The notes under the pieces: model-generated | What the model was told of the DNA's origin: nothing | What the model saw: the letters and a program-made list of their open reading frames with translations, nothing else | The model's database searches: none | Made by a program: the position numbers and the translations under genes | Shown here: positions 26,541 to 43,440 of the stretch, in pieces | Layout: each line of letters begins with the position of its first letter | Numbering within the stretch: the first letter of the stretch is position 1 | Origin: Ectocarpus siliculosus | Lineage: Eukaryota; Sar; Phaeophyceae; Ectocarpales; Ectocarpaceae | Direction: 5' to 3' | Length of the DNA: 54,137 nucleotides | Assembly: GCA_000310025.1 (NCBI GenBank) | Contig: FN649755.1 | Span: forward strand, 2,977,144-3,031,280

Positions 26541-26868
26541 CGAAGCAAACAAGAAGAAAGGGCGCGTATTCTCCGACAAGCTTCTCGTGGAAACTTGAGA
26601 CTTTGGCACATTTTCCCGTTCTTCCTGCTGGGCTGACATTCTCGACCGCCCTGTTCGAATTACCCACCTTCCCATAACCTCCGATGCCCGAGTCATGGAC
26701 TGGTAGCGCAGCGCGATTTCTTAAAGCGAGGCCCTTGCGTTCTGTCGGCCGGTCTTTCGCCGTAACGCCTTTGATGGCCATGAGCGCAACACTGTTGTGA
26801 GGTGATTATCCCCCCCTCCTTTGGCTGTCTCCCCCCCCCCGGTGCTTCCCCCCCCCTCGGCCTTGTTT

Positions 26869-27508
26869 GCCATCGGGGTTTGGGTTTTCGTCGCTTGGCA
26901 ACGACGTTGTAAAACAAGCCGCCCCCCGGTGTTTGCCATCGGGGTTGGGTTTTCGTCGCTTGGCAACGACGTTGTAAAACAAGCCCCCCCCTCGGTGTTT
27001 GCCATCGGGATTGGGTTTTCGTCGCTTGGCAACGACGTTGTAAAACAAGCCAATTCACTTCGTGAACTCGGCAACCAGGTTACCGGGTTTTCTTTTTTGC
27101 CTCTGCTTTTGTTTCGCGGTAACCATAATGGTGGTCGAGTAGATCATGTTGCGGGGTCGAGAACCCTCACTCCGCGCAAAGGGCATAGTCGCACCACGTT
27201 GTGTTAATTGGTCAGGCACCCTCGAGGCAGTTACACAGTGCTTATAACTGTCTATGGAAGTGAAAGCACCAGAGAATAAAGTAAGTCATACGCAGCTGAC
27301 ATCCGTACGCAAGGAAGTAAGCACAAGATGCCGAACACACTTAGCAGGATGCAGCGCACCCTTCATGCGACTCGCCGAATACCTCACGGCGCTTCGCGCT
27401 TGGTGATGTGAGAGCCTGGTCCTGTGAGAACCCGGCGTGCTCCGTCCCGGCTTTGTAGCGATGCGAGGTCAATGGTCTAACGACTACGGCATGCACGACT
27501 ATGAGTAC
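26869..27508 (+). mobile_element. SINE-like non-LTR repeat, copy 1
   Basis: It begins with three 65-66 bp units, each holding the hairpin CGTCGCTTGGCAACGACG (at 26889, 26954 and 27020) and TTGTAAAACAAGCC. After these come AATTCACTTCGTGAACTCGG, GGTAACCATAATGGTGGTCG, CTCGAGGCAGTTACACAGTG and other conserved blocks, ending GGTCAATGGTCTAACGACTA-CGGCATGC and a CA microsatellite. The last 45 bp match the LINE 3' tail at 43857-43912. There is no open frame of note. Confidence 0.7.
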
Positions 27509-31955: not shown

Positions 31956-32895
31956 TGATTGAAATACAAAAGCCATCACGAGACTCTCTTGTCACTGTCA
32001 CAATTACGGGCTACCCGGCACACAATTCCGTCTCTATTTAGGGAGTTATCAACAGTGTTTTCCTGTTTCCAACAAACGAATCTGTCGAGAGCACTTAGAC
32101 TAACAAACTTGAGCTACTGTATGTACACAGTACGACGTTAAAACGTCAAAGCGCACCGCCGGGTTTATTGCGGGCTGTTGCGTACGGGTCAACAAAGCAT
32201 GAACGACCCGACATGCGCAGCCTAGCTCTCTTGGGCTGATTTTAAGGTCCTACTAGGCTGCAGGATCGCGAGGCTGCACTGCGTTAAACTCCCACATGGT
32301 CTACATCGCGTCAGGAATTGTGGGCCTACTAACACCACCGGCTGTGGATTGCGACGAGGTTGTTGAACCCCGAAAACGTGAGCACAACAGACTCATGTAC
32401 GGCTGAACGGTACTTGTACGTGGTACCCACTAAGCACAAAGAAGGACAGAAGATTGTGTTTCAGCAACAGGTGGCTGATGTGCATGCCGAAAGGTACAGG
32501 CAGGATACACCGCCGCAGCGTCCTGATGGATCTCCAACCCCCCCCTCTTACCGAATCTCCCTTTGTCGTTCCTCTTGAAGATCAGCAGCCACCCTTCGAT
32601 TTGCCGCAAGCATGAGTTCCACGTCCGGCGTCATGTTGACGTGAACAACGGCCGACGCTCTCGCGCTGCTCTACTGGCGAGAGCAACCTCAAAACCTGTA
32701 GCTCTCGACTCTCTCGACGGCCGGGAAAAGTTTCTGGACTGCTTCACGCCGCAAGAACCTTGTTACTTTTGTCATGTATGTTGGGATACAGGCAGGATCG
32801 AGCGGACGGATCGAGAGAGATTGTGCAGTTGACGGGTGCCTGATACAAGTGCGCGGCCCAACCTACAGCAGTACAACCCTGCCGCAAAAAAAAAA

Positions 32896-33164
32896 AAAAG
32901 GAAGGTTTGTTCGAAGAGCAGATAGAATAAACTGGTGTTTATTTTGTAACAGTCGAATTAGAATTTGGCTTCATTTTCTATCGGAAACCCAGGGTCACGG
33001 TGTTTGGATTTATTATTGTTGTCTATAGGTGGGGATGTCATTCCGTGATCGAGTCCACGCAGGGGCTGTAGCAAAGTCGGGTAACGTGTGAGAGCTACAG
33101 CGCGTGAAGCAACGGAAGGACAGCAGCAGCCGCCTAACGCAGTAGCGGCGGCAGTTTAGAAAAT
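32896..33164 (+). repeat. split repeat A1 (left end of element)
   Basis: 269 bp starting in a poly-A run, AAAAGGAAGGTTTGTTCG, and ending GGCGGCAGTTTAGAAAAT. It matches A2 with an offset of 7176 and about one mismatch near the end, so the copies are young. Confidence 0.9.
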
Positions 33165-33224
33165 GGACGGGACGGGACGCGGCGCAAGCATTGGGGAAGC
33201 GACCAGCGCGCGCTCGGGACCCTC

Positions 33225-33233
33225 CATATAAGG
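33225..33233 (+). promoter_or_regulatory. possible TATA box of the recombinase element
   Basis: CATATAAGG lies 60 bp after A1 in a GC-rich context. It would start transcripts near 33255-33265. Position just inside the left end fits an element promoter. It is supported by sequence pattern only. Confidence 0.35.
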
Positions 33234-33931
33234 TGTGTAATCGGGTCCGTGTTCAACATCCGTCGTGTCTGCCGTGTTCCTTCCCGCGTCCCGCTACTCT
33301 TGTGACCTCACCGCTGCGTGCATAGCACGGGGGGGGGGAGGGTGCAGTAAGATAAGCGGCGTACCGCAGTCTCTCTCGCCACGCCGTTCAGATAGGTACC
33401 CTCCCACACATGGGATGTGGTTCATCCCAACCGAGATGTACTATCGCTGAAAAAATATTTCAACGGAGAAAACGCGCTGCTGTACGTGCCACGATAGCAG
33501 CCATCGTACTGCACGGGGTGGGGAAACCTTGCGGCATCGGACATAACCGATCGACCCGCGGCAGTGGGGCACGTGGTGTGTGCTGTCAAGAGTATGCACA
33601 TGGTGCCGGTGCCTTGTTCTCTGTTTCCCGCGGCTCACTCGGGACTACTTGCCCGTACCTGGTCTGTGCCGCGCACAGACGGGTAAATGTAGCCGAATGC
33701 ATCGACGATAATATGCTCACGTAAGCTATCGTCTCCACTGATGGCATTGACAAGTCCCACGGAATACAAAGCGGCCGCATGCGTAATTGGAAAGTGCATA
33801 CAACAGCATTCACGGGAACGGATGAACAGAAGCAGAAACCGTGTTGTTGGCGAGTGGAAGTTAACCGATCTCAACGCAATAAAAAAAATAATAATAATAA
33901 AAAAAAAAAAAACGAAAGTCGAAAACGTATC

Positions 33932-35075
33932 AGCACGGGACGCGCCAACGAGTGGAAATACCTGCGCTGTTGACGAGTAGAGTTAACCGCATTGTGTTGC
34001 ATGTGTGCTGTAAGCCTTAGCACGGGACGCGCCAACGAGTGGAAGCACCCGCGCTGTTGGCGAGTAGAGTTCACCAAATTCAACGCATCGGAAGGAAAAG
34101 GACCACAAATAATGTATCAGTACGGGACGCGCCAATGAGTGGAAGCACCCGTGCTGCATATGTGATGTCAGCCTCAGCACGGGACGCGCCAATGAGTGGA
34201 AGCACTCGTGCTGTTGGCGAGTAGAGTTAATCGATCTCACCGAAAAACAAAACAAAAGCCGTACACGTTTCAGCACGGGACGCGCCAATGAGTGGAAGCA
34301 CCCGTGCTGTTGGCGGGTAGAGTTAACCGCAACGTGTTGCATGTGTGCTGTCAGCCTCAGCACGGGACGCGCCAACGAGTGGAAGCACCCGCGCTGTTGG
34401 CGAGTAGAGTTAACCGCATTGTGTTGCATGTGTGCTGTCAGCCTTAGCACGGGACGCGCCAACGAGTGGAAGCACCCGCGCTGTTGGCGAGTAGAGTTCA
34501 CCGAATTCAACGCATCGGAAGGAAAAAGACCACAAATAATGTATCAGTACGGGACGCGCCAATGAGTGGAAGCACCCGTGCTGCATATGTGATGTCAGCC
34601 TCAGCACGGGACGCGCCAATGAGTGGAAGCACTCGTGCTGTTGGCGAGTAGAGTTAATCGATCTCACCGGAAAAACAAAAGCCGTACACGTATCAGCACG
34701 GGACGCGCCAATGAGTGGAAGCACCCAGGCTGCATATGTGTTGTCAGTTTCAGCAACGGACGCGCCAATGAGTGGAAGCACCCGCGCTGTTGGCAAGTGG
34801 AGTTCACCGTATCCAACGCATCGATAAAAACAACAAACACGTATCAGCACGGGACGCGCCAATGAGCGGAAGCACCCGTGTCGCTGCGAACTGGGGTTCC
34901 CCGAATCCAAGGTTTAAAAAAATAAAAATCCACCGTTAGTGCTATGAAGAAAAAAAAAAAAAAACACGTCCAAAGTATGTCATCTGCGCACTCTCCATAT
35001 TGTGAAGTCGCCTGGGCGTCAGCACGGGACGCGCCAATGAGTGAAGCACGCGTGCGGTAGGCGTCTGGTATTACC
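33932..35075 (+). repeat. 13-copy hairpin minisatellite with higher-order period of 427 bp
   Basis: AGCACGGGACGCGCCAATGA, followed by GTGGAAGCACCCGTGCT, recurs at 33932, 34019, 34119, 34176, 34272, 34359, 34446, 34546, 34603, 34694, 34752, 34846 and 35021. The best units have 8-bp inverted ends (AGCACGGG / CCCGTGCT) around a 20-bp core with CGCGCCAAT. Spacings of 87, 100, 57 and 91-96 repeat in order, so 34019-34445 and 34446-34870 are higher-order copies. Linkers such as GAGTAGAGTTAACCG and GCATATGTGATGTCAGCCTC are also repeated. The minus-strand open frames (GCFHSLARPVL repeats) are broken by the 100-bp spacing and are not taken as a gene. Confidence 0.9.
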
Positions 35076-37690
35076 GTATTGGATAAATAGTAGAGACGGA
35101 TACTAACCCTTGCGTGACTGGGTTAATTTGATTTTTTGTGTTCATTTTCCCACAACTGGCTCTCTGCCGTCAAAGATCTTCCAAGCATGCGTGTACACCC
35201 ATAAATCACGGTGGCAAGGATGGTGCAGCAGTGGGTCCATGTGTGGGGCTCACAGGGATGGGGACGCGGTATATGTAAAAGGGTGACGAACAGGAGTACA
35301 GTAGTACTACTGCTGTACAGCAGTAGCAGTTTTGCGGAAAGAATTAGACTGTACAGCAGCAGTAGTTCCTGAGCAGGTGTGCATGCCTGTCTCCGACAGC
35401 AACCGTCCGCACACAGGATGTACCTGTGCAAGCAATATCTGTTGGCACACCTTTTCCACCTCATCCTTGGACAGAGCATAGGGCAAGCGCATATATATGC
35501 TAGCGGCGCTAGATGCGAAGACGCGGACGGAAGACCGCCTCACAGAAGCGCCAGATCGACGGAGAAAAAAAACGGCCCGCTCACCAGAGAATCGAGAGCA
35601 TCACCCGCTATCGCAAAAAATGCATAAAAATCGTGATAAATTTTACTACTCTGTACTACAAATAGAGAGCTGTGATCGGAGCTGTGATCGGAGCTGTAGT
35701 CCCGAAAACCCTTGTCTTGGAGCTGTAGTCCCGAAAACCCTCGTCTTTGAGCGAACTTTTGCACACAGCAGACGAACCACCCTTCACTCCCAATACTGGG
35801 AACCACACGCACCGCAACCACAACAACATCAAGCACCGAGGCCGTACGTTAGCATCGGCTCCGGTGCGCGTTTTCTCTGCTCTCCCCCGCGGATGCGGCA
35901 CCGGGTTGAGCAGATGTTCAGGGGCTGTATGTACCCTCCGATGGTATTGTGCGTTTGAGTCTGAAGACTACAGCAGTATCGGTAGGCAGTAGATTGGATC
36001 TGGCAAGGATATCTGCCTCACGTCATAGAGATGAGGCATGGGTGAATAGTGCTGTGCTATGTGAGTCCTGTGCGCCTTGCTGATAAGCGTGCTTTTGGGG
36101 TGGGCTGCCTGTGTCTCCCTGCTGGTCTCTATCTATGTAGTTGTTTGCTCTTAGCCGAGGCACAACGGCGATCTTTCGGCACGCAAAGTGATCGGCGGTG
36201 AGGACGGAGCTGAATCGGCCTGTACTCACGTAAGGGTTAAAGGCCACTTAAGCTACCCCTGGTGCCAAGAGTTCGCTCTGTGGCAATACAACGAGTTACG
36301 ATGATATTTAAATATCGAACGATAGCTAACATTACCATCTATCCCGTAACAAAAAAAAAAAAAAAGAAGAAAAATCGTTATAAGTGACAAGGTACAGCGG
36401 TAGCCGTTTGCCCAAGTTGAAGATGGAATATTGAGGGAAAACACGGCCCGGAGGGTATTAACGGCTACCTTGAATACTAGTGATTGCGCTCGTTCTACTG
36501 CTTCCCAGAACTTCTCCTTTGGCACAAACAATGATGATGGTACTAATAGCGAGCGTTTAGAATTAAAAAAAAAAATGCTTACCCGGGGACAAAAACGAAG
36601 AATCCCCTGGTTTTCGTTTGACTGTTTATAGAAAAAAATACGAAGGAGGAAGCAACAGCATTAACAATGCCACGCGACGGGAGGTAGCTTTACCCACCAT
36701 CTGTCTCGTACAAGGTTAGATGCCATGGGGTATCGTGAGTGTGGAGAAAAAAGGTTGCAACTGCCCTCTCCCGCACGGAACAGCCCGGAAAAGCCGCGCA
36801 GCCCTGTTCTGATCGTCAGTCCGTTCACCGCTTGTCACGATCGGCATTTCTCCTCGAGCACCCAACGAGCCGGCCCGTTTATGGCGTGCCGGCGAGCAGA
36901 GCCTTCTGGCTACAAATAATGGCCATGGTCTCGGTGGTAGGGTGCCGATAGCCCCTCTATGAGCAGTGTGCAGCAGGCCGTGTCGTGCACTTGCTTTGCA
37001 GCGGCCTCGCGGCAAACTCCTTGAACTCCTTGCCTCTTTGATGTTGATCTTGATAGAAAAAGTCCCTTGGGACTTCTTCCCAGACAGAGGAACTTCTAAA
37101 AATCAAAGGGCGTCATCAGGAGGTAGCAGATATTCGACCAATCAGATCTCGATTTTGATTTTCGATTTTGATTTCGGCACTTCGTTAACACGCACTTAGC
37201 GGCTGGAAAATAAATAAATCGAGAAAGGCTGGGATATCGTACGCCACCTTGGCGCCGAACGCTATAGAGGGCTCAGTTTTTATCCAGCTGGAGCAAACTT
37301 GCGCTTAAACGATCGGCATGGTCCATGACAAAAAAAAAAAAGGCATTCCCCGATATTGTTGGCAAGATATGAATTTTTAAGCCAGGTGGTCGCTAACACT
37401 CGGGTGGCCTTTAATACCCGCCTCTACTCAACACCTCCAAAACACGTGCCGAGGAATATTCGGGGTTGTCGAGACATGGGACCCCCATTGACCGTAGCGT
37501 AAGCAGCAACAATCACTCCACTCAATCTACAGGCGTCGGGAACGAACCAACGCAAGCTCGCGATATAACAACGCGTCGTTCTGGGCCCGACGCAGAGCCT
37601 CGTCAGATATTTCCGCCGAAGATAGGAACTTGTAGAGCACTCTAACTGCAGATCCAGGCGCGCGATCGACCACGCTCACGATGAAGAGGA
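35076..37690. other. interior of the recombinase element without recognisable genes
   Basis: This is where an autonomous DIRS/Ngaro element would carry Gag and reverse transcriptase/RNase H, but no such motif was seen on either strand. Minus-strand open frames at 35307-35543 (YALSKDEVEKVCQQILLAQV) and 36253-36531 (FVPKEKFWEAVERAQSLVFK) look somewhat protein-like and may be captured host exons or debris. Confidence 0.4.
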
Positions 37691-37696
37691 AAACAA

Positions 37697-38160
37697 GTGT
37701 TCCCGCAACGCCGCCCTGACGTTCGCCCGCCGCCTGCCGCCGGTTCGCTGCTTATACGACTCCAACCGCGACCAGATGCCGACACGGGCCTCCACGCGGA
37801 GCGCCAGGGCTGCGGCCGGGCAAGCAGGGCGAGGTCGGGCGGCGACACCCTCGACACCACGCACGAGGTCTACCGCGCGATCGGTGGCGATCTCGACGGC
37901 TCGCCCCTCGACGCGGAGCGGGTCACGTACTCCCGCGAGGCGTCGAGCGGTATCCTCGTCGCGAGGGACAGGGACAGGCACCCGCGGCGACCCCCCCCCG
38001 CTGACGAGACTGAGCTCGCTCCTCTCCGCGGGCTGGTGGACGGCCTGAGGGAGGAGCTGCAACGGGGGCGGGACGAGGCTGGCGGCGATCGCCAGTAGCT
38101 TCAAGCATCGATCGACGACCTGATCGCCGCCCAAGCAGCAGGACCTGGCCTTTAGGGGGA
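37697..38160 (+). pseudogene. 5' in-frame extension of the recombinase ORF, broken by two TAG codons
   Basis: The frame of the recombinase is open upstream from 37697 and reads as an Arg-rich then amphipathic segment (LAPLRGLVDGLREELQRGRD, then TAG at 38096, LQASIDDLIAAQAAGPGL, TAG at 38153). The heptad-like pattern continues across the first stop, suggesting one former protein with a helical N-terminal region. Codon composition is very GC-rich, as in the recombinase N-terminus. Either the product now starts at the ATG at 38261, or the extension is decayed. Confidence 0.5.
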
Positions 38161-38260
38161 GGTGCAACTGGTGGGCACAACCGCCCCACCACCGGCATCT
38201 CGGGCCCCCGCTGTACCCAGCGCCGAGGCTGCTAAGGCTGCGGCAAAGGATAGGGCGCGG

Positions 38261-39757
38261 ATGCAGGGGGACCTCCGCCGGTTAAAAGCATGGCTCATCC
38301 TCGGACGGCCTCCGGCAGTTGCAAAACTGTCGGAGCCGAAGTGGCAATCCTTGCCTCGCAAAGGCGTTCTGGTGTCAGAGAAAGTGGCTGCATCGCTCGA
38401 CACGCTCTCAAACTTCCGGGTCGAAGACCGTGGTCGCAACGTTGGCCACGGCAACGGGGCAGGGGGTGCGGAGGAGAGGCGCGCGCCGCTGGCGAGGGCG
38501 GCGCGAGGCCCACAGCCGCTGATTTCTTCACCCACGGAAAAGACAAATAGAGGTGCGGGCTCTCCCGCGTGGCGGGGGGGGCCTACCTCGGTTGGCAGCG
38601 CACATGCGGCCAAATCGAACGGCAGCACGCCGGTCTACACGAGGTTGGCCCAGGTCAATCAGCAGGTTCAGGACCTGGGACAGGCAGGACAGGACTCTGT
38701 TACCGACGTCTTGGCATCCAGCTCGTCGAGCACTCAGTTGTCTAGAAGGACTTGCACGCCAGGCTTCAACTCTTGGTGCACGTTTCGGAGGCTGACGGGG
38801 AAGCCCAAGTTTCTAGGGCAACGTGCCAGGGGCCTTCATGTGTGGGAGTTGATAGACTTCGTAGCCTGGTGTTTCGAGTCTGAGGGTAACCTAGCGAGTA
38901 CAATATCCGGAAAACTCACGGCTGTGCAACATTTTCATACTTGTAGGCTGGAAGCTTCGGTCGAGCTAGACTTGTCGTCTCCGATGTTGAAATGTGCGCT
39001 AAGGGGGATGGCGAGGAACCACGTGGCTATGGGGACGGTACGCCGTGTGCGCCTGCCTGTGTTATGGCGTATGCCGCTGGACGGGGAAAGCGCAAGGCAG
39101 AACTGGGGGGAAGGGGGCAGAGTGATGTGGCTGTGTCTGTGCCTGTCCTATCTCTTCATCACACGGTCTGATGAGGTGTTTGCGAATGACGCGGGCAGGG
39201 TGCATGAGGCACACCGTCTTACGAGGGTGGACAAATCATTGTTTGCCGACGGGACGCAACTAGACTTTAGTCACTGTCGTAGAGCAGACCGTGTCGAAAT
39301 GAGGTTTAGAGGGCACAAGGCCGATCAAGAGCAGAAAGGCAACATACGGGTTCGTACGCGAGACGAAGTCACCGGACCGCAGTCAGGTGTGAGAGCACGC
39401 GGCGGCGCGGTGGCTCTTGTGGTGGAGCTATTGTCGTGTCATGCGACGTTGCCTGACTCCGCTCCGTTGGCTCCGTACCGTAGTGGAAGAGCAGTGAGAG
39501 TAGTGAAGTATAGTGCTGCCCTCCGCGCAGTAAGAGAAGTGGTAGCGAAGTCGGGGCGTAACCCCCAGGAGTACGCGTTGCACTCGTTGCGAATTGGAGA
39601 CGCGACGGCTCTTGCATCGGGCGGAGACATCGCAGAACGAGTGATTCAGAGAGAAGGGAAGTGGAGGTCGAATGCCTACAAGCCGTATGCGCCAAACAAT
39701 GTAGAGGATTCGCGGCGAGTGTCACGGAACTTACAGACGGCAGCAGGATTGTATTGA
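38261..39757 (+). CDS. tyrosine recombinase of DIRS/Ngaro type
   Basis: 498 codons from the first ATG after the upstream TAG. Such enzymes cut and rejoin DNA through a covalent 3'-phosphotyrosine bond, and in DIRS elements they integrate a circular DNA. The N-terminal 150 residues are variable. A core-binding-like domain follows (STQLSRRTCTPGFNSWCTFR, about residues 160-260). In the catalytic domain I see R302 (YLFITRSDE), K353 (RFRGHKADQEQKG), H441-x-x-R444 (HSLRIGDATALASGG), W468 where His or Trp is usual, and Y473 (GKWRSNAYKPY). All key residues are present and the frame is intact, so the enzyme could be active. It ends 78 bp before repeat B1. Distant alternatives are Crypton or phage-type recombinases, but the flanking split repeats favour DIRS/Ngaro. 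Confidence 0.88.
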   Translation: MQGDLRRLKAWLILGRPPAVAKLSEPKWQSLPRKGVLVSEKVAASLDTLSNFRVEDRGRNVGHGNGAGGAEERRAPLARAARGPQPLISSPTEKTNRGAGSPAWRGGPTSVGSAHAAKSNGSTPVYTRLAQVNQQVQDLGQAGQDSVTDVLASSSSSTQLSRRTCTPGFNSWCTFRRLTGKPKFLGQRARGLHVWELIDFVAWCFESEGNLASTISGKLTAVQHFHTCRLEASVELDLSSPMLKCALRGMARNHVAMGTVRRVRLPVLWRMPLDGESARQNWGEGGRVMWLCLCLSYLFITRSDEVFANDAGRVHEAHRLTRVDKSLFADGTQLDFSHCRRADRVEMRFRGHKADQEQKGNIRVRTRDEVTGPQSGVRARGGAVALVVELLSCHATLPDSAPLAPYRSGRAVRVVKYSAALRAVREVVAKSGRNPQEYALHSLRIGDATALASGGDIAERVIQREGKWRSNAYKPYAPNNVEDSRRVSRNLQTAAGLY

Positions 39758-39835
39758 GACAGCCGGGGGAGGGGACCGTATGAGGGAACGCATAGTTGAG
39801 TTATTCGGTAGTCGTCCAGAAACTGACCTCGATGT

Positions 39836-40074
39836 GGGTGTTGTAGAATGGTGTGTACCATTTGAGGACTTGGTCAGTTTTGGGACTCCTGCGGTTGCAG
39901 TCGTAGTCCCCCGGCTAGTATTTATGGGGAGAGAGATGGATTTGTAACAGTTGACGCCGGCCTTCGCAGCTAACGCGGCCGGAGAGACGATGAGCGTTTC
40001 GTGCGTCTCTCTCCCCAACACGTAGCCTAGAAACCGAAGAAATAATGAAGCAATTCGAAAGAAAACAAAATAAA
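39836..40074 (+). repeat. split repeat B1
   Basis: 239 bp starting GGGTGTTGTAGAATGG and ending AAAACAAAATAAA. It looks identical by eye to B2, offset 571. It includes a short inverted pair, GCGGCCGG near 39980. It abuts A2 with three shared A residues. Confidence 0.9.
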
Positions 40075-40340
40075 AGGAAGGTTTGTTCGAAGAGCAGATA
40101 GAATAAACTGGTGTTTATTTTGTAACAGTCGAATTAGAATTTGGCTTCATTTTCTATCGGAAACCCAGGGTCACGGTGTTTGGATTTATTATTGTTGTCT
40201 ATAGGTGGGGATGTCATTCCGTGATCGAGTCCACGCAGGGGCTGTAGCAAAGTCGGGTAACGTGTGAGAGCTACAGCGCGTGAAGCAACGGAAGGACAGC
40301 AGCAGCCGCCTAACGCAGTAGCGGCGGCAGTTTAGGAAAT
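40072..40340 (+). repeat. split repeat A2
   Basis: 269 bp, near-identical to A1. Its junction with B1 mirrors the expected circular-intermediate junction. A 66-bp unique piece (40341-40406) separates it from B2, where the textbook arrangement has none; part of that piece (GAGTATTCGGTA) resembles sequence upstream of B1 (39799). Confidence 0.9.
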
Positions 40341-40406
40341 CCCGCCCTCCCATCCCTTTTCTTTCGAAGGTGGGGGCATAAGTTCGGGAGTATTCGGTAT
40401 CTAGTC

Positions 40407-40645
40407 GGGTGTTGTAGAATGGTGTGTACCATTTGAGGACTTGGTCAGTTTTGGGACTCCTGCGGTTGCAGTCGTAGTCCCCCGGCTAGTATTTATGGGG
40501 AGAGAGATGGATTTGTAACAGTTGACGCCGGCCTTCGCAGCTAACGCGGCCGGAGAGACGATGAGCGTTTCGTGCGTCTCTCTCCCCAACACGTAGCCTA
40601 GAAACCGAAGAAATAATGAAGCAATTCGAAAGAAAACAAAATAAA
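40407..40645 (+). repeat. split repeat B2 (right end of element)
   Basis: Partner of B1. The element ends at ATAAA, followed by unrelated CGGGAAACTC. Confidence 0.9.
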
Positions 40646-40904
40646 CGGGAAACTCTCCGCATCTTCAGTCTCACCGCATAAAGTCATCGCAGCAGCGCAG
40701 CAGCGCAGCAGCGCAGCTGGAGCAACGGAGCAGCCGACTCTCTCCGTCCCCCCCCCCCTTCCCCCCTCCCTTCCTCTCTCGCTTTGTCTGCACGCGTCAT
40801 AGATGCCGGAACGGAGTTTGTACACGCGGGAAAATGTTGCGAGTAACAACGTGAGATCGCGTTGCAGATGGTGCCTACATGATTGCCGTTGGAGCACTAC
40901 TTGC

Positions 40905-41565: not shown

Positions 41566-42845
41566 CAATGTATGTACCTCCTCAACGAAAATGACACTGC
41601 GGTCTGGCCAGACGGGTGTGATACGTATACGGTTGACTTAACGCACGTTCGTTACGGAGCCTGGCTGCGGTCGTGTCACGATTTAGGGGTGTATTGTAGT
41701 GTCATGCAATTTTATACTCGCTACGATATTCAGGACAGAGCCACTAAAAGTAGGGGAAACGCCAGTTTCTGCTCACAAGAAGCCAGCGTCGAAAGCGAAT
41801 CTTTCATGACATGCATGTGTCTCAGCAGTCATATGCGTACAATCGATGGATTGCGTAGATGAAGACGTGACTACTGTACCCTTAGACAGCACAGAAATAC
41901 ATGTGTGCATCCAATTCACGAAACACAAAGCTTATTCTCCATTCCGGACTGTTTTCTACAAGTCTCAGAGTACACAAAGTGGGTGCACACGTGTCTTTTT
42001 TGTTAGCATCGACCGCGCGACGCGGATGGCCGATGAAAAGAAGTCGGTCTCAGTGTCGTGGAAAACACAAAAAGCTTCTTCTATAGGCCAGACGGTCTGG
42101 GACCCTGTGACCGAGCGTCATGGGGGAAGTCCACGCTACTCTCCGGTTTAAGGTGTTTCCACGTGGCTGCTACTGCTTTGGATGCGCGTGTGCTTGGGTT
42201 GCTTTCATCGTATTTTCTCGTTGTCAGTGCATGTATGCATATTCCCATTACTTTTTGGCAAGTCCTCTCCAGTCCTGCGGCGTTTGTTGTGAAGGAGGTC
42301 ATCTGGCTCAGGCCCTTTCCTTCCTTCCACGCCATGTTTCCCTGCTCCATCGTCGCCTTTGTTCCTCTTTATTTCCTTTCCCCTTTCTTAATTTCCGTCA
42401 CTCCCTAAAGAGTTACCCTGAATACCATCGTTATCGCTTTCACCAGAACTACTACTGAACTCCCAACCTATTGGTCTTGGTCGATCAGTAGTCCATGACG
42501 TCTGAAAACATCACGAGTTCGTACCGACAGAAAATGAGCCACCTCGAAGGTAAACCATCTCCGGACTATGTTACAGAACGGGCCTGGAGATAAGAAACGT
42601 CAAATATCGGGTCGAGCTTCACTCTCTTATTTTGGGCCAGCCGAAGTCGGCCCAATTTCTTACAACGGATTTCTTATTGCTTTGGGCTGTCGCATCCTGC
42701 TGATTCTCTTGTTTTCTTTTTTTCTTATTTGTGGCGAAGAAATAACACACCAGTACAGCAGCAGTGGCTGGTGAGTATAGCGCAGCCCGCTGCGGCGCGG
42801 CGGCGCGGGGGCCGCCGCGAAAATACCCCCCCCCCGCCCCCCCCG
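41566..42845. other. no recognised gene
   Basis: Open frames up to 116 codons have no recognisable features. The GC-rich stretch 42780-42845 leads into the SINE-like repeat. Confidence 0.4.
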
Positions 42846-43440
42846 GTGTTTACCATCGGGGTTGGGTTTTCGTCGCTTGGCAACGACGTTGTAAAACGAG
42901 CCCCCCGCTCGGTGTTTGCGATCGGGATTGGGTTTTCGTCGCTTGGCAACGACGTTGTAAAACAAGCCAATTCACTTCGTGAACTCGGCAACCAGGTTAC
43001 CGTTTTTTTTTTTTTTTACCTCGGTTTTTTTTTTTTGGCGGTAACCATAATGGTGGTCGAGTAGATCATGTTGTGCGGGGTGGAGGACCCTCACTCCGCG
43101 CAACGGGGGATGATCGCACCACGTTGTGTTAAAATGATCAAGCACCCTCGAGGCAGTTACACAGTGCTTACAACTGTCTCTGGAAGTGAAAGCACCAGAA
43201 AATAAATTAAGTCATACGTAGCTGTCATCCGTACGCAAGGAAGTAAGCACAAGATGCCGAACACCCTTAGCAGGATGCAGCTCACCCTTCATGGGACTCG
43301 CCAAATACCTCACGGCGTTTCGCGCTTGGTGATGTGAGACCCTGGTCCGGTGAGAACCCGGCGTGTTCCGTCCCGGCTTTGTAGGGATGGGAGGTCAATG
43401 GTCAAACGATTACGGCATGCACGACTATGAGTACCCCCCC
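42846..43440 (+). mobile_element. SINE-like non-LTR repeat, copy 2
   Basis: Same family as 26869-27508 but with two hairpin units (CGTCGCTTGGCAACGACG at 42871 and 42938). It ends GGTCAATGGTCAAACGATTA, CGGCATGC, GAGTAC and a poly-C run, immediately followed by the LINE fragment. Confidence 0.75.

Follow-up and report, generated by a model that had tools for sequence, protein, structure and literature searches.

Tyrosine-recombinase retroelements of the Ngaro and PAT-like types are known with split direct repeats (PMC4157794, PMC9210276, PMC6681497, PMC8547959), and there are reports of Ngaro-like elements in Cafeteria (PMC8547959) and of 15 Ngaro families in Ectocarpus (PMC12477816). The element described here lies at about 32900-40645 of a 54,137-nucleotide stretch of Ectocarpus siliculosus DNA (contig FN649755.1), referred to below as the window. 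As in Ngaro-like elements, its order is A1-[open reading frames]-B1A2-B2 with the internal repeats downstream of the recombinase, and the relatives that were scanned have reverse transcriptase (RT)-RNase H and a tyrosine recombinase. It differs in that the window copy is without RT-RNase H, and in that the RT-RNase H of its relatives lies between recurrent GT and AG boundaries.

That the window element is an RT-less, non-autonomous derivative of a Ngaro-like family is near certain. From the DNA sequence it seems quite probable that RT-RNase H in this family lies in an alternatively spliced intron, and that the RT-less elements arose from copies of spliced RNA and were spread by RT acting in trans; descent of the window element from a spliced message would be its best reading, and a probable one. 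Under this scheme a GT donor close to the beginning of the RT open reading frame (ORF) and an AG acceptor directly ahead of the recombinase would bracket RT-RNase H. Gag and RT-RNase H would be made from the unspliced RNA; in the spliced RNA, with RT-RNase H taken out, the start of the RT ORF would be joined to the recombinase in frame. Now and then a spliced RNA would be packaged, reverse transcribed by the RT of an intact relative and integrated, and the RT-less product, retaining the ends, the recombinase and at least part of Gag, would then be amplified by RT in trans. What the genome shows directly is the architecture of the element, the existence of relatives with RT, junctions with identical GT-AG boundaries, three origins in two families, an in-frame product and terminal repeats that change in concert; from these we infer that splicing occurs, that RT acts in trans and which protein products are made.

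Relatives that carry reverse transcriptase

The genome searched was the window's own, of 189 Mb, and all copy counts are lower bounds. The family has more than 100 related copies. The 3' end of the element (39750-40645) gave at least 42 matches (445 first-look candidates, of which the best 40 were scored) and the recombinase at least 121 scored matches of 659 candidates. With the RT of L005, a member of a more distant family, at least 78 matches were obtained (best 75 of 361 candidates scored), and in a genome search with Pfam RVT_1 the best 150 of 1041 candidates were scored. Coordinate comparison among the listed matches showed that 16 of the 121 recombinase matches adjoin an RT match: eight belong to the L005-type family, two (C10 and C76) are 67-68% identical to the window, and six (C74, C27, C79, C147, C156 and C187) are its close relatives.

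Relatives with matching ends and an RT are represented by L007, L008 and L009, so that copies with RT between the A and B repeats do exist (L007 and L009; in L008 the spacer and B2 are not in the fetched stretch). L007 (C74) has, in order, A1, a 5' region with satellite, Gag, RT-RNase H, recombinase, B1, A2, spacer and B2, with frames of 564 amino acids for Gag, 768 for an overlapping RT-RNase H and 392 for the recombinase. Its A and B repeats share 92-97% identity with those of the window, and the two recombinases 91%; over the recombinase and 3' region the identity is 94% with the window element and 98% with a second RT-less type, L010. L008, with an RT frame of 690 amino acids, and L009 resemble L007. 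In the more distant family, L005 (C460) has a recombinase at 61-63% identity, a Gag of 520 amino acids and a single RT-RNase H-recombinase frame of 1112 amino acids (L005:4018-7356); other copies of that family have separate frames of about 770 and 398 amino acids. In Gag there is a motif that we take to be zinc-finger-like, a further point in common with Ngaro-like elements.

The RT identity of the relatives' ORF depends mainly on conserved columns in six members. A YVDD and the D/E/D/D columns of RNase H, presumably the RT motif and the four acidic residues of RNase H, are invariant in these six, and are found in the ORFs of L007 and L005. Pfam RVT_1 matched the relatives' RTs below its cut-off (E 0.13, 0.02 and 0.017), Peptidase_A17 (Pao retrotransposon) matched two of the six RT members with E 0.0012, and a PDB profile search for RT returned no RT, only two chance-level matches (E 1.4). 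With Pfam, which is weak on this family, the ORFs of L007 and L005 gave no match to a methyltransferase domain, the lack of which marks Ngaro-like as opposed to DIRS/PAT-like elements.

The junction left by the missing segment

An interior without Gag, RT or RNase H had been predicted for the window element. The absence of RT and RNase H stands: tblastn with the relatives' RT gave no significant match between the remnants at 38650 and 38654, nor elsewhere in the element, and Pfam on ten interior frames gave only chance-like matches. Gag, on the other hand, had been overlooked, as had the splice-like boundaries of the deletion. The Gag of L007 matches 37611-38615 (tblastn, E 5e-97; 86-89% in the three best pieces; this and all features below are on the forward strand), where the window copy carries an internal deletion and frameshifts relative to it. 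Remnants of the L007 RT ORF flank the deletion, residues 9-33 at 38576-38650 and residues 720-751 at 38654-38749 (tblastn). The RT-RNase H has been removed cleanly, and Gag has lost a separate piece.

The remnant of the N-terminus of the RT ORF, the side of a putative first exon, extends over 38576-38665 and ends at a splice-like donor, ...ATCAGCAG, and the point at which 2.05 kb of RT-RNase H is missing is 38665-38666 (C30:3015801), where RT-bearing relatives read CAG|GTG...CAG|GTTC. The L007 segment is delimited by CAGCAG|GTGTGG and TGGCAG|GTTCAG, and both the window and L010 read CAGCAG|GTTCAG. The lost 2.05 kb begins with GT and ends with AG, and without it the start of the RT ORF reads in frame into the recombinase. 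A 533-amino-acid stop-to-stop ORF lies at 38156-39757, with part of Gag fused to the recombinase, and a frame of this length is also found in five other listed copies (C21, C176, C255, C57 and C27). Searched through the genome with up to two mismatches, the RT-less junction had 109 matches (one for the reversed-pattern control) and the unspliced acceptor 10 (none for the control); the two patterns differ at three or more bases and therefore do not cross-match. The unspliced acceptor was read in 10 copies and the donor in seven, with the same GT and AG throughout, and eight of the 10 acceptors adjoin an RT match from the L005 RT search, those of C5 and C273 being the two that do not.

Origins of the RT-less state

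In a tree of the recombinase part with 29 rows (8 labelled RT-bearing, 19 RT-less sampled from the 109, and 2 outgroups) the RT-less state needs two changes, and a single RT-less clade was rejected (p-AU 0.0002). It was rejected again (p-AU 0.0009) with 26 rows and the upstream 215-227 bases added. C273, labelled RT-bearing by its unspliced acceptor at a place where the L005 RT search gave no match, contributes its downstream part only to the first tree and is absent from the second. Left out of the trees were L004 (partly N), L028 (different deletion), L048 (no upstream match), L056 (no hit), L057 (altered upstream side), L039/L040, L042 and L043/L044 (incomplete) and L058 (too distant). The placement of the RT-bearing C187 has moderate support (89/89), and C187 and L053 move in the second tree; the RT-less rows are split in both. 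The same junction thus arose twice in the window's family.

A single RT-less ancestor could give the same picture if its deletion had been passed between lineages by recombination of co-packaged RNAs. Retroelements in general undergo template switching. Between the two RT-less lineages the identity over the recombinase and 3' region is about 94%, and on the downstream side of the junction the bases that first tell copies apart stand 24 to about 51 bases beyond it. Just upstream, however, copies of the L010 type read ctatca like C74, and those of the window type mostly caatca like C187. With distinguishing bases close on both sides, a transferred deletion would need a short exchanged tract, the single clade is rejected also with the upstream part included, and the case in the second family, to which we now turn, would be left unexplained. 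We regard a single ancestor as very improbable.

In the L005-type family, C183 (L058, L083) has A1, satellite and a long Gag frame of 496 amino acids (520 in L005) and is without L005 4130-6192, such that CAGCAAG|GTGGGA...GGCAG|GAACAAC becomes CAGCAAG|GAACAAC at a position homologous to the junction of the window's family. The fusion product is an in-frame recombinase ORF of 422 amino acids, and from the start of Gag to B1 the RT segment is, small indels aside, the only loss. Only 3 nt of microhomology are present at this junction, and 198 in-frame junctions of that kind were counted in L005; the C183 case discriminates between splicing and microhomology. The junction thus has three origins in two families, and in each of the three the loss is bounded by GT and AG.

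Spliced RNA or deletion

The main rival to a spliced origin is a microhomology-driven deletion, in which the segment would have been lost between two copies of GCAGGT, through slippage or a template switch in the course of reverse transcription; the loss would have been kept for the in-frame recombinase fusion, the GT and AG would be coincidental and amplification would again have been in trans. The bases shared at the junction of the window's family, GCAGGT, are compatible with either process. In L007 no other in-frame open junction has 6 nt of microhomology (1/1), and slippage with selection for frame could explain the two cases in the window's family.

Further observations count against splicing as the source of the junction. 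The boundaries of the Gag deletions are GT-AG in none of the three examined in RT-less copies, and other routes of deletion therefore exist; since Gag deletions are present in all five RT-less copies compared in detail (the window, L003, L001, L002 and L010), the window's family showed no spliced copy that was otherwise intact. In the RT frame the acceptor AG belongs to a Trp-Gln that is itself partly conserved, and no clear pyrimidine tract precedes it. At C85, C273 and C5 the stretch fetched has no match at the place expected for the donor. The third case is a single copy (one genome match) without A2 and B2, and near the acceptor L005 carries an extra T that C183 does not have, so that the junction is in frame in C183 but, measured against L005, is not. 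Finally, the spliced junctions predicted for two other family types, C206 and C228, have no matches in the genome.

Set against a chance deletion are the 3 nt of C183, with its 198 in-frame options and yet a homologous GT-AG position, and the recurrence of the donor in four family types. A donor of the form NNA.GGT, a codon ending in A followed by GGT, occupies only 2/768 and 3/753 codons of two RT ORFs, and exactly one such donor is found within the 110 codons before V/I-R-x-W-F-G in 10 of the 11 RT-bearing sequences read. Six of them (three C74-type sequences, L005, C206 and C76) have a phase-1 AG|GTG donor exactly 67 codons upstream of the RT motif, and four C228-type sequences have theirs 73 codons upstream. 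The residues before the donor differ (LSA, RQQ, ATS, PTS, LTR and LDR), and protein conservation therefore does not explain the A. Two points limit this argument: C476 is without a donor in the scanned frame, having Arg where its relatives read that Gly, and GVDA follows the donor in both the C74 and the C206/C76 types, so that part of the conservation may be at the level of the protein. On balance deletion by microhomology seems unlikely, though it is the strongest of the alternatives.

The recombinase

The tyrosine recombinase domain is at 38741-39754. R137, K188, H276, R279, W303 and Y311 are invariant in an alignment of seven family members, and we take this R-K-H-R-W-Y set to be the catalytic motif. 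A profile of the seven sequences matched 17 Cre-type chains (E 0.0047-0.055), and four of the seven members, the window's own not among them, matched the phrog_1 integrase of PHROG (best E 1.2e-4); these features place the protein among the tyrosine recombinases. Searched singly, the window recombinase had no relevant match in Pfam or PDB, and a single-sequence structure prediction was unusable (pLDDT 34.8).

The recombinase had been described as intact, which holds for the ORF and the catalytic residues. However, the window protein has Asp after HSLRIG where the six other aligned members have Gly or Ala, and its tail differs from that of L007. Within the two RT-less lineages pn/ps is 0.65 and 0.64, as compared with 0.33 among RT-bearing copies, in a sample where a few rows carry stops or gaps. 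Constraint on the recombinase in the RT-less lineages therefore looks relaxed, and we make no claim that it is selectively maintained there; taken with the unusual Asp, this raises the possibility that the recombinase too is supplied in trans.

Repeats, ends and mobility

Self-comparison placed the A copies at 32886-33164 and 40062-40340, offset by 7176 bp, and the B copies at 39836-40077 and 40407-40648, offset by 571 bp. Trimmed to the element, A1 and A2 are identical at 267 of 268 positions, with one difference, and B1 and B2 at 239 of 239; repeats this long and this similar are not expected by chance. The A1...B1-A2...B2 layout of the original prediction is real, with the internal repeats downstream of the recombinase, and the same split repeats are present in the RT-bearing L007 and L009 and in L005. 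Within the element A1 covers 32900-33164, B1 39836-40074, A2 40075-40340 (its first base being the A before GGAAGG), the A2-B2 spacer, conserved in other complete copies, 40341-40406, and B2, the right end of the element, 40407-40645.

The B1/A2 junction does correspond to the ends of the element joined. The AAA thought to be shared by those ends is indeed read in the window, at 32897-32899, but only its last A is constant (19/19 left ends compared). Left ends read NNA|GGAAGG, with AAA, ACA, ATA, TTA, AGA or GCA as the trinucleotide; the first two bases probably derive from the target, and the window shows AAA because this copy sits in a poly-A run. Right ends read ...AAAATAAA in all 15 copies read, and no target duplication was evident at the ends compared. 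An additional feature of L011 (C189) is a set of partial tandem A copies at its left end.

Both ends were fetched for 19 copies of the window's family, and in 15 of these A1, B1, A2 and B2 occur together, as would not be seen for unrelated dispersed repeats. L008 has A1, B1 and A2 with no spacer or B2. In the remaining three, L023, L025 and L030 (C27, C43 and C3), B1 is the last part of the element and unrelated DNA starts precisely at its junction side, as is also the case in C183 (L083:6997). This suggests that the internal B1/A2 junction is also cut, or used as a recombination site. In the 15 complete copies A1 and A2 differ at 0-3 positions and B1 and B2 at 0-4. Sites at which the two A repeats of a copy agree and the copies differ number 1 to 14 in eight pairs; for the window there are four against C10, nine against L010 and 14 against L007. 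Such concerted change is the homogenisation expected from reverse transcription, although recombination in a circle could have the same effect.

These observations bear on the two possibilities that had been left for the element, a non-autonomous derivative that kept its recombinase or a recombinase-only element moving as a DNA circle without reverse transcription. Cryptons have a tyrosine recombinase and no RT, and to our knowledge they have no split direct repeats. The window element is like them in the former respect, its recombinase keeps the catalytic residues, and the four copies that end exactly at B1 would fit an internal junction serving as a recombination end. The difference is that its relatives have RT. 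The first possibility is supported by the RT-bearing relatives with matching ends in the same genome; the RT-less copies do not stand together but form two groups among the RT-bearing ones, and both A1/A2 and B1/B2 change in concert. With RT-bearing relatives and split repeats the family is not one of Cryptons, and movement of the Crypton kind is extremely unlikely.

Other features of the element

The region at 33165-33823 is homologous to the 5' region of L007 (blastn, 79-92% in pieces). It is followed at 33927-34927 by an array of 87/157-bp tandem repeats, and related repeats are found at the same place in RT-bearing and in other RT-less copies; tandem arrays between A1 and Gag (as also at L083:1951-3869) occur in both families examined. 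The hairpin satellite that had been proposed was not borne out, as no strong fold was found relative to shuffles (z -0.25 to -1.68 over four stretches). Rfam gave only two matches, far below gathering scores, and a bacterial promoter and terminator scan was uninformative in a eukaryote. The 2.5 kb at 34925-37488 gave no convincing Pfam match in the frames tried. A genome search finds this stretch in window-type copies; among the longer loci only L003 matches it fully and the others share just a short satellite-like piece.

Two further arrays, with a near-identical 66-bp unit, flank the element about 16 kb apart (26849-27051 and 42836-42968). Elsewhere in the genome L028 (C89:146400-149550), some 2.65 kb long, retains A and B repeats and the recombinase, most of its interior having been lost through a different deletion.

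Discussion

Returning to the spliced origin, we think it reasonably likely that the whole RT-RNase H gene serves as an alternatively spliced intron, that the spliced recombinase message acts as a template for transposition and that autonomous elements repeatedly yield RT-less parasites in this way. If so, RT-less, recombinase-bearing parasites would have been born at least three times, and in one family would outnumber autonomous elements by about eleven to one. This would explain how an autonomous element can generate parasites of itself, and the predicted junctions could be checked directly in transcript data. How RT and recombinase are expressed from one RNA, and where RT-less relatives come from, seems to have been little studied; in the literature searched, which left subscription papers mostly outside, there was no report of splicing in Ngaro elements, of RT-less copies derived from spliced RNA, or of recurrent GT and AG boundaries around the RT-RNase H of such elements.

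The closest parallels for the proposed splicing are long terminal repeat (LTR) elements in which it yields a second mRNA. Spliced Gag mRNAs are described for copia and BARE1, copia losing 2.9 kb of Pol (PMC3735527), and a spliced shGAG for EVD/ATCOPIA93 (PMC8892269); the authors on BARE state that DNA copies of the spliced form could not be amplified (PMC3735527). In the Ectocarpus family, by contrast, splicing would yield the recombinase, and copies of the putative spliced form are abundant in the genome.

For the non-autonomous state there are parallels among the tyrosine-recombinase retroelements themselves. TOC1 of Chlamydomonas is a non-autonomous relative of these elements that has kept their ends. 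SIRE is described as likewise a non-autonomous relative with its ends kept, a truncated VIPER made of the two VIPER ends and about 30 bp of its own sequence (PMC6681497). The window element differs from SIRE in retaining, in addition, the recombinase and part of Gag.

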